This document shows positions 39,977-42,419 of a stretch of 64,000 bases of DNA, piece by piece. Under the pieces are notes generated by a model that saw only the letters and a program-made list of their open reading frames with translations, made no database searches and had not been told where the DNA came from. Positions within the stretch are counted from its first letter, which is position 1. Each line of letters starts with the position of its first letter. The position numbers and the translations under genes were made by a program. This DNA comes from Fluctibacter corallii (GTDB lineage Bacteria; Pseudomonadota; Gammaproteobacteria; Enterobacterales; Alteromonadaceae): NCBI RefSeq assembly GCF_025751585.1, contig NZ_JAOWKX010000012.1, positions 1-64,000 on the forward strand, read 5' to 3'.

Positions 39977-40489
39977 TTATACTAACTTCTTGGGATCGAT
40001 AGACTCAAAACGTGCTAATGGATCATCGTCATCCCCATCTACATCGTCATTATCGTCGGCATCATCGTGAATACCGAGTAATTCACACAACGCACGGTGA
40101 CGTTGCATTTTTTGATCAACATATTGTTGTTCCTCAACGGAGAGCACAGCCTGATCTTCTATCTTATCTAATAATGCTTCAAGTCTGGCATCGGCTTCAA
40201 TCGCCGCCAGTTCCTGCTTGGGTGAGAAGTACTTAGGCTTAGGTACTTTTTTCTCAACCTCTTTTACCACTAGCGGTACTGGCTTTTTGCTGCCAACCCG
40301 TGGATCTTTCTTTTGATTTTGAATAGGCGCTTTAGTGTCTTGCTTAGTGCTATGACGACTTCCGCTTGGGTTACCGGTTTTCTTTTTCGGCTTCCCACCG
40401 GAAGGTGAGCGGGGTTGGCTTCCCGGTTCTTTTGGTGCTTTACGAACACCGATTTGCCCGACTTTACGGGTCTTTTTTGATCTGGCCAT
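39977..40489 (-). CDS. yihI: Der GTPase activator YihI
   Basis: Stimulates GTPase Der (EngA) in ribosome assembly. 170 residues: a basic, Lys/Pro-rich disordered N-terminus (MARSKKTRKVGQIGVRKA), the conserved core KKDPRVGSKKPVPLVV (about 61-76) and a helical C-terminal part (PKQELAAIEADARLEALLDK) ending in an acidic tail. It lies beside the Csr-type RNA, engB, spf and polA, as in E. coli. Confidence 0.93.
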   Translation of the reverse strand: MARSKKTRKVGQIGVRKAPKEPGSQPRSPSGGKPKKKTGNPSGSRHSTKQDTKAPIQNQKKDPRVGSKKPVPLVVKEVEKKVPKPKYFSPKQELAAIEADARLEALLDKIEDQAVLSVEEQQYVDQKMQRHRALCELLGIHDDADDNDDVDGDDDDPLARFESIDPKKLV

Positions 40490-40527: not shown

Positions 40528-41199
40528 TTATGTCGGGCTGTTGATATGTTTTCTTAAGAAGACTACATCGTTACTTATCACTGACAGCGTTAAACCGTAA
40601 TGATTGGCTATCCATTGAAAGGTTTTTTCACTAAAAAAGCTTACGTGGGTGATATCGTTCTTGTAGTGCCAATGAGCAAACCGCTCTTTGCTTATCACGC
40701 GTTTTGTCATCACCGCCAACAACCCATTTGGCGTGAGCATGTTTATTAGCTTGGTAAATTCCACATGTGGCGCATGAAAATGTTCGCACGCTTCTGTGCA
40801 AGTGATCACGTCATAACGTTGTCTCAACTTGCTGAGATTATTGGCGTAAATAGGATCGAATACCGCCATCTTAATACCAAATTCTTCAAGCATTGAAGCG
40901 AGAACAGGGGCAGGGCCGCAACCAAAGTCGAGCCCTGAAAGCGTGGGAGAACTAAGGTTTTCTGATAATGTTTGTATGAGAGGAGCGCTCAGCTTAGTGA
41001 GAAAGTGCCGATATCCCTCATCTTCAAACGCATTCTCATGTAAATCGTATTCCTGCTTTTCTTGCACTTGATTAGGCAGACTGCACGGCTCAACAAAAAC
41101 AAGCATACAAAGGTTACATTGAAAATACCGTCGGCGTTTGTCTGTATGGTAGTGTTGGGTGTCGCCAGAAAGGCACAGTGGGCAAGGATAGTTGAGCAT
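40528..41199 (-). CDS. SAM-dependent methyltransferase with zinc ribbon
   Basis: 223 residues. The N-terminus carries a two-CxxC zinc knuckle (CPLCLSGDTQHYHTDKRRRY, then CNLCMLVFVEP), followed by a class I methyltransferase core with LDFGCGPAPVLASML (about 89-103). It resembles SAM methyltransferases of the type seen with RNA or polysaccharide substrates. No substrate can be assigned from the sequence. Its start lies only 18 bases from the terminator of the CsrC-like RNA, which reads in the same direction. Confidence 0.82.
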   Translation of the reverse strand: MLNYPCPLCLSGDTQHYHTDKRRRYFQCNLCMLVFVEPCSLPNQVQEKQEYDLHENAFEDEGYRHFLTKLSAPLIQTLSENLSSPTLSGLDFGCGPAPVLASMLEEFGIKMAVFDPIYANNLSKLRQRYDVITCTEACEHFHAPHVEFTKLINMLTPNGLLAVMTKRVISKERFAHWHYKNDITHVSFFSEKTFQWIANHYGLTLSVISNDVVFLRKHINSPT

Positions 41200-41216
41200 A
41201 TTTTCGTTTCACAAAG

Positions 41217-41498
41217 AAAAAAGGCGATAGCAATGCTATCACCTTTCGTATAACTAAGTGCCAGATGACACTTCTCCCGTTATGTATTCTTCCTGAATAA
41301 TAACAGTTCCCTATTTTACGCTTCCCTTATTTTTATTCTTCACGAAGCCTTATTTTCTCGTTTTCGGTCTTCCTGACGCTTTATTGGTCGTCCTTATATT
41401 TCCCAAGTAGGTTAGTGACTAACTCTTTTTATTGTTGATTACGCTAGTCTGGTCTTCCATGTTAGCTGCTCAAAAACAGCGTCCTTATTGTTATTGTT
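41217..41498 (-). ncRNA. csrC: CsrC-type regulatory RNA (sequesters CsrA)
   Basis: About 282 bases on the minus strand. Nine GGA motifs occur (minus-strand GGA at 41276, 41293, 41310, 41325, 41373, 41393, 41403, 41458, 41484), four as AGGA and four as GGGA, where about four would be expected by chance. CsrA-family proteins bind GGA in hairpin loops. A sigma-70 promoter lies just upstream and a hairpin with a T run (minus: GGTGATAGC-ATT-GCTATCGCC then TTTTTT) ends it. The place, between yihI and engB next to polA/spf, is that of E. coli csrC. No protein-coding frame is present. Confidence 0.82.
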
Positions 41499-41504
41499 GC
41501 GCAA

Positions 41505-41532
41505 AGCATACACTATTAGTGTGGTTTTACAA
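41505..41532 (-). promoter_or_regulatory. Promoter of the CsrC-like RNA
   Basis: On the minus strand TTGTAA (41532-41527) and TATGCT (41510-41505) are 16 bases apart. The spacer contains ACACTAATAGTGT, an imperfect inverted repeat that could bind a regulator; such RNAs are commonly controlled by the BarA/UvrY (GacA) system, but I could not see a full match to that binding site. Confidence 0.65.
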
Positions 41533-41575
41533 CTTTTTTACAAACAAAAAGTGAACTTTTTTTGAAAGTTGCAAT

Positions 41576-41600
41576 AAAAAAGCGACATATTGTCGCTTTT
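41576..41600 (-). terminator. Terminator after the cytochrome c4 gene
   Basis: AAAAGCGACA (41578-41587) pairs with TGTCGCTTTT (41591-41600) around a TAT loop; on the minus strand six T follow. It separates the cytochrome gene from the CsrC-like RNA promoter. Confidence 0.88.
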
Positions 41601-41606
41601 CTAAGA

Positions 41607-42230
41607 TTAGTGTAGGCCACCTAAATATTTCGAAATTATCTCAATATCTTTGTCTGTCAGACGTTTAGCGATATCTCGCATCATTCCGTTAGGGTCGTTG
41701 GCGCGATCACCAGAACGGAAAAGCTCCAACTGAGATTTTATATAAGCTGTGTGTTGCCCGCTAATATCTGGGAAATTAGCTAATCCCATTCCATTTCCGC
41801 GTGGACCGTGACATGCGATACAAGCAGTAATGCCACGCTCCATATCACCACCACGATAAAGCTGTTCACCCGCCTCGATAACATCTTCAGGCGTAGTGCC
41901 TGAGGTTGCTTCCTGACTTGCGAAAAAAGCAGAGATATCTTTGATATCTTGATCTGAAAGTCCGGCAGCCATACCATTCATTACAGCATTATTACGACCT
42001 TCAGCACCGCCTGTCTTAGATGCTAAACGGAAGTCCATTAATTGCTTTTCCAGATAGCTAGCATGCTGACCAGCCAACTTTGGATTCATATCGATGGCAC
42101 TGTTACCATCGTTTCCGTGGCATGCTGCACAAGCTGCCGCTTTGTTTTTACCTGCTTCAGGATTGCCTTCAGCGAATGCGCTTGAAGTAAATCCGAAGGC
42201 CACCAAGAATAGCAAACCCAATTTCTTCAT
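41607..42230 (-). CDS. Diheme cytochrome c4
   Basis: Periplasmic electron carrier to terminal oxidases. 207 residues from ATG 42230 (MKKLGLLFLVAFGFTSSAFA as signal peptide); a TTG five codons upstream is less likely. Two heme-binding CxxCH motifs, CAACHG (near residue 33) and CIACHG (near 137), and two similar halves typical of c4, each with a Met ligand region (NGMAAGLSD, DPNGMMRDIA). Family: cytochrome c4, two class I domains. Confidence 0.93.
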   Translation of the reverse strand: MKKLGLLFLVAFGFTSSAFAEGNPEAGKNKAAACAACHGNDGNSAIDMNPKLAGQHASYLEKQLMDFRLASKTGGAEGRNNAVMNGMAAGLSDQDIKDISAFFASQEATSGTTPEDVIEAGEQLYRGGDMERGITACIACHGPRGNGMGLANFPDISGQHTAYIKSQLELFRSGDRANDPNGMMRDIAKRLTDKDIEIISKYLGGLH

Positions 42231-42419
42231 AGTTGATCTCGACAAACGTTTGATTAGTTAACGATTTTTAATTAGGCGTATTTTACACATTTACGCGCCT
42301 GTTAAAATCATTTACAGAGTAATAGTAGGGATATTTCTTTGAAATACCACTATTTGTGCCATTTTCAGTGATATACTTTGCCTCATTATTCGCTGTAACA
42401 CACATTTTGTAGGTATATT

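Follow-up and report, generated by a model that had tools for sequence, protein, structure and literature searches.

A candidate counterpart of csrC between a cytochrome c gene and yihI in Fluctibacter corallii

Does the stretch between a cytochrome c gene and a methyltransferase gene in Fluctibacter corallii hold a small RNA gene, and is that RNA a counterpart of enteric CsrC? The DNA analysed was positions 1-64,000 of the forward strand of NZ_JAOWKX010000012.1 (GCF_025751585.1), and "the window" means this whole stretch of 64,000 nt. The gene order on the minus strand was polA, engB (reversed), cytochrome c, RNA, methyltransferase, yihI and DUF2489. The GTPase neighbor was assigned to EngB by position, and PolA is also encoded nearby. 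The RNA had been placed between yihI/methyltransferase and cytochrome c4 by the initial annotation, and Pfam agreed, finding YihI, Methyltransf_23 and two Cytochrom_C domains in the flanking genes; the name c4 is that of the initial annotation. The RNA has one copy in the F. corallii genome. The features of the locus were as follows.

41607..42245, minus strand: upstream gene, two-domain cytochrome c (Pfam Cytochrom_C, two stretches)
41505..41532, minus strand: promoter-like TTGTAA-16-TATGCT, the -10 preceded by TG (pattern search)
41217..41497, minus strand: predicted small RNA of about 281 nt (models R1 and R2 and fold; 5' end inferred from the promoter)
41367..41377, minus strand: core hairpin GUC[AGGAA]GAC with CsrA-type loop (covariation in 2 of 3 stem pairs)
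41320..41348, minus strand: hairpin GCUUC/GAAGC with A-rich loop (covariation in 5 of 5 pairs)
41285..41299, minus strand: hairpin UAUUC[AGGAA]GAAUA with CsrA-type loop (12 of 76 orthologs have GGA at that alignment position)
41274..41278, minus strand: GGGAG directly ahead of the GUGUC hairpin
41257..41272, minus strand: hairpin AGUGUC[AUCU]GGCACU, nearly invariant (alignment and covariation)
41217..41247, minus strand: intrinsic terminator, 13-bp stem (41247-41219) followed by a T-run (covariation in 8 of 11 modelled pairs)
40528..41199, minus strand: downstream gene, SAM methyltransferase (Pfam Methyltransf_23), starting 17 nt past the T-run
39977..40489, minus strand: yihI (Pfam YihI)

A scan with the cytochrome protein yielded 232 relatives, and the best 80 of these 232 were kept (named genomes, mostly Alteromonadaceae). 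Model R1 found the RNA at 75 of these 80 cytochrome-linked loci at E <=1e-5, and at 77 of them at E 0.01. R1 was trained on 36 sequences, the redundancy-filtered part of 57 motif-search finds among 81 sequences. Because the training set came from a motif search, motif-poor loci were left out of it; R1 afterwards recovered most of them. The 36-sequence alignment gave four helices by RNAalifold, namely the core hairpin, the GCUUC/GAAGC hairpin, the GUGUC hairpin and the terminator, and a second, terminator-free alignment gave one more hairpin between the second and third of these. Changes on both sides were found in 16 of 25 modelled pairs; they include pairs of the core stem, which every one of the 36 sequences can form. 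Of the cells, 97.9% were paired; shuffles gave 90.4% and slid versions 39-58% (maximum 58.1%), the comparison with slid versions being biased in the structure's favor since the structure was derived from the same alignment. The fold of the RNA had a z of -5.2 against shuffles, the terminator being included and part of the effect. This fold and its conservation with covariation are the features of the RNA that lie well beyond chance. Judged from the aligned sequences, the region is a real conserved small RNA gene, whose transcription is predicted.

The five loci missed by R1 at 1e-5 were Idiomarina and Pseudidiomarina records. In these Idiomarina-type genomes (L055, L064 and L079-L081) a poorly matching or unmatched stretch lies in the same place, and a GGCC[AGGA]GGCC hairpin is present in L055, L064 and L080. 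L079, L080 and L081, which gave no usable match, were left out of the ortholog RNA set, while L055 (E 0.0094) and L064 (E 0.0036) were included.

The initial annotation had described a clean promoter, a T-run terminator and no reading frame. A promoter-like pair is present, with TTGTAA at 41532-41527, a spacer of 16 nt and TATGCT at 41510-41505 preceded by TG. In a search aimed at this very pattern, 70 of 78 orthologs scored at least 11.5, as did 3 of 390 mononucleotide shuffles used as control. The pair was absent from the list of a sigma-70 consensus scan of the window. The terminator was borne out, with its 13-bp stem and T-run. The ORF list contained no minus-strand ORF of at least 60 aa in the RNA interval, in agreement with the claim on that strand; a plus-strand ORF of 63 aa (41062-41253) overlaps the end of the interval. 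By eye, a further terminator-like hairpin with a T-run was seen at 41574-41603, directly past the cytochrome gene and before the RNA promoter; it is absent from the scan lists.

The nine GGA motifs previously counted were recovered on the minus strand, with first bases at 41484, 41458, 41403, 41393, 41373, 41325, 41310, 41293 and 41277. Dinucleotide shuffles contained 6.2 GGA on average and 193 of 2000 reached nine, and other 283-nt stretches of the window contain up to 11. The GGA count alone is thus weak evidence, only mildly above chance, and the numbers were near chance in several tested orthologs as well. Two GGA-loop hairpins with a stem of at least 4 bp were present in the window RNA, matched by 28 of 500 shuffles, plus one GGA in the 3-bp covarying core hairpin. 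Of the expectation that the motifs sit in hairpin loops and are conserved, each half was borne out only in part, with uneven conservation from site to site. GGA was kept ahead of the GUGUC hairpin (in the GGGAG) in 73 of 76 orthologs, ahead of the core hairpin in 66 and in the core loop in 53, and was patchy elsewhere. The core loop lacked GGA in 23 of 76 orthologs, and was AAGAA or ACGAG in 17 of the 76. Among 78 orthologs the window RNA was the richest with its nine GGA, the other 77 having two to eight and most commonly five (38 of 78).

Model R2, built without the terminator, also reached more distant versions of the RNA, scoring 25-49 bits in families f6 and f15 and among remote members of the window's own family. 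Twelve distant versions contained 8-17 GGA, a rough count because promoter calls at these loci are unreliable, and their median density was 4.5 GGA per 100 nt versus 3.2 in the window's clade. The shuffle test for GGA hairpins with stems of at least 4 bp covered 22 of 90 RNAs, and its counts are not probabilities because the orthologs are related to one another. Seven such hairpins were found in L138, seven in L139 and four in L141, whereas shuffles had a mean below 1 and none of 500 reached these numbers. The excess in L132 and L134 (three each, reached by 7 and 12 of 500 shuffles) and in L136 (two, 22 of 500) is suggestive, and L130, L131, L133, L135 and L140 lay within or near the shuffle range. 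L138 was matched by R1 with 43 bits, while its only R2 match was on the other strand with 16 bits. GGA was present in the core loop of 11 of the 12 distant versions, and ahead of the GUGUC hairpin in only 6. By sequence, the distant relatives carry a denser, CsrB/C-like version of the RNA, and in most of those tested the GGA excess over chance was stronger than in the window RNA.

The position of the RNA was then compared with that of csrC. In E. coli K-12 the order is polA, spf, yihA/engB (reversed), csrC, yihI, the same order and orientation as in the window, where the RNA lies between engB (yihA) and yihI in the csrC orientation with extra cytochrome and methyltransferase genes in between. 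The E. coli csrC neighborhood proposed earlier, yihI, engB, spf and polA, was recovered in yihI, polA, engB by position, order and orientation, but not in spf, as an Rfam search of the window gave no match for Spot 42. Across the order, R2 gave one match each in 41 of 295 genomes: 36 beside the cytochrome gene, 4 beside DUF2489 or yihI only, and 1 elsewhere. In four genomes of one family (G006, G134, G147 and G160) the match was next to DUF2489/yihI and the engB-cytochrome pair was elsewhere. Thus 40 of 41 matches were in this neighborhood, spread over families f1, f6 and f15. The sole match without these neighbors, L171 (G164:C40:86124-86215, family f11, 33.6 bits), could represent a further Csr-type RNA or have arisen by chance.

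At its gathering cut-off (61 bits) the CsrC family RF00084 had no match in the window or in 20 loci, and at 1e-3 it had none in the F. corallii genome. A relaxed search gave the RNA 11.6 bits, which was rejected as a sign of CsrC membership because only the terminator part matched. The CsrB family RF00018 (cut-off 71 bits) did not match the RNA locus up to E 10, and no other match to the RNA was found with Rfam 15 in the window or the 20 loci. Conversely, R1 scored 28.3 bits on E. coli csrC, a score that is mostly terminator (the terminator on the opposite strand scored 23.3 bits), and R2 at E 1 missed E. coli csrC and five other RF00084-matched loci, four of them above the RF00084 cut-off. 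Direct homology to enteric CsrC was thus not recovered once the terminator was removed. A hairpin, GUCAGGAAGAC, is common to E. coli csrC and the RNA. Since R2 misses enteric csrC and the R1 score is mostly terminator, common descent rests mainly on place and orientation, plus the GUCAGGAAGAC hairpin. The RNA is a positional counterpart of csrC that lies outside the Rfam CsrC family by covariance score. "CsrC-like" stands for position, orientation, conservation, AGGA hairpins and the encoded CsrA and UvrY, but the covariance-model check suggested with it gave no Rfam CsrB or CsrC match. None of the papers listed describes the RNA from Alteromonas or related bacteria. Kulkarni and colleagues reportedly predicted Csr RNAs in bacteria in 2006, possibly including this one.

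That the RNA is an unrelated conserved sRNA sitting by chance in the csrC neighborhood would fit the missing Rfam match, the near-chance GGA count and the failure of R2 on enteric CsrC, but its place and orientation match csrC and the homologous loci in the same family, f6 and f15 are richer in GGA, several with above-chance AGGA hairpins, which makes coincidence very improbable.

The F. corallii genome encodes CsrA, Hfq and a UvrY with 61% identity to that of E. coli. It also contains a CsrB-like RNA of its own at a separate locus, with all RF00018 matches in the genome lying on one contig.

C11:207449-207653 of genome G000: CsrB-like RNA (L082), RF00018 62.6 bits against a cut-off of 71

This CsrB-like RNA contained 47 GGA in the 641 nt examined and had a one-mismatch UvrY box upstream. 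In the family, RF00018 matched 16 of 59 genomes at 1e-3, none of them above the cut-off. When the UvrY/GacA box TGTAAGN6CTTACA was sought near the promoter of the csrC counterpart, the best site within 300 nt had 3 of 12 mismatches and was shuffle-like; nowhere in the window was there a box with at most 2 mismatches, though one of weaker likeness is possible. Of the 90 RNAs from this locus, only L134 had a one-mismatch box, in a distant version whose upstream limits are uncertain. As shuffles yielded 2 such boxes in 450, the L134 box is not a firm sign that the lineage formerly had a UvrY box. The result near the promoter suggests that the level of the RNA is probably controlled differently from that of CsrB.

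From these results we consider it probable, with moderate confidence, that the RNA is a free-standing positional counterpart of csrC and a trans-acting, CsrA-binding sRNA. It would be transcribed from its own promoter and end at its own terminator. With the AGGA loops of its hairpins, the conserved GGGAG and further GGA as binding sites, it would most likely capture one to a few CsrA dimers in trans and so lower free CsrA as an auxiliary to the main, GGA-dense CsrB. Its level would probably be set unlike that of CsrB and perhaps be nearly constitutive. The sequestration of CsrA and the control of carbon storage, motility or biofilm named in the initial annotation could follow from such binding.

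The main rival to CsrA binding came from the A-rich linkers of the RNA, which contain A-R-N runs of the type bound by Hfq's distal face (PMC4104026).

41484..41495, minus strand: A-R-N run AATAACAATAAG, Hfq distal-face type (run search)
41422..41436, minus strand: A-R-N run AACAATAAAAAGAGT (run search)
41326..41340, minus strand: A-R-N run AAGAATAAAAATAAG (run search)

According to this alternative, the RNA is a csrC descendant acting mainly as an Hfq-bound base-pairing sRNA, with single-stranded A-R-N runs docking on Hfq and the conserved, unpaired AAUAAAG.. and ACCnAAAACAA pairing with mRNAs. Strict A-R-N runs (at least 4 triplets) covered 42 of 281 nt of the RNA versus 9.5 in shuffles (none of 300 reached 42). 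Only 6 of 6372 window stretches reached this level; all overlap the RNA, and no other part of the window is as dense in A-R-N runs. At least one run was present in 76 of 78 orthologs; summed over 26 of the 90 RNAs, the runs covered 831 nt versus 213 when shuffled (top shuffle 381). Non-A bases two As apart numbered 1084 versus 820 expected. Hfq is encoded and A-R-N runs, a feature looked for in Hfq-dependent sRNAs, are present, with none in the organism's own CsrB. However, the excess was within the shuffles in some RNAs (L030, 62 of 300; L138, 181 of 300), L139 was without runs, E. coli csrC also has 24 nt in such runs, and the A-rich linkers may be plain unstructured spacers. Nor did A-R-N runs rise as GGA fell (Spearman -0.12, p 0.27), so the idea that they replace lost GGA was rejected. 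The A-R-N share was equal in the distant relatives; being flat and independent of GGA, it leaves a swap from CsrA to Hfq unsupported. We judge a mainly Hfq-bound role unlikely. A broader proposal, about equally doubtful in our view, is that in Alteromonadaceae the csrC lineage lost most of its CsrA sites, with as few as 2 GGA left in some species, and seemingly UvrY control too, yet kept a rigid core and Hfq-type A-R-N linkers, so that it now joins the CsrA and Hfq networks or has passed from sponge to base-pairing regulator.

A trans-acting, CsrA-binding RNA also had to be weighed against a cis-acting leader, whose terminator would attenuate the methyltransferase-yihI genes. Such a leader is conceivable because the methyltransferase ATG lies 17 nt past the T-run, leaving no room for a promoter of its own behind the terminator, and yihI is downstream in both common arrangements. 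However, the RNA is kept while the first recognised downstream gene varies, being methyltransferase in 50 of 90, yihI in 34, DUF2489 in 5 and none in 1. The RNAalifold output, which was not a dedicated antiterminator search, contained no alternative antiterminator fold. The csrC RNA of E. coli, whose gene likewise precedes yihI, acts in trans. We therefore regard the cis-acting leader as very unlikely.

Compared with E. coli CsrC (RF00084), the RNA shares gene order, orientation, a length of about 250-280 nt, the GUCAGGAAGAC hairpin and a strong terminator, but it falls below the Rfam score, carries long A-R-N linkers, adjoins a cytochrome gene and often a methyltransferase gene, and has no UvrY box that we found near its promoter. 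AGGA-loop hairpins are common to the RNA and CsrB (RF00018), whereas the organism's own CsrB-like RNA is a separate, GGA-denser locus with a UvrY box. Nine GGA are also found in Pf3 of Pseudoalteromonas fuliginea, which has fewer GGA than its siblings Pf1 and Pf2, bound CsrA in EMSA and raised glycogen in E. coli (PMC11882849). The comparison is one of likeness, and Pf3 need not be the same gene. Database matches of Pf3 outside the genus include TAA/AAT-rich repeats, hinting at similar A-rich linkers (PMC11882849). The predicted csrC of Shewanella oneidensis is similar in having few motifs: it has four, is transcribed and is independent of BarA/UvrY, but its place, between mutM and SO_4727, differs (PMC3171408).

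If the favored reading is true, csrC would be an ancient gene that has held its position in several families of the order while its sequence drifted beyond the reach of Rfam, and the relatives, taken as a series, would show how far a CsrA sponge can shed sites and yet be kept. The natural variants, with 2 to about 17 GGA, are ready for testing how many sites are needed and whether Csr RNAs use Hfq. In six relatives (L144-L149) the engB-adjacent cytochrome gene gave two or three tandem matches within frames of 323 to 436 aa.
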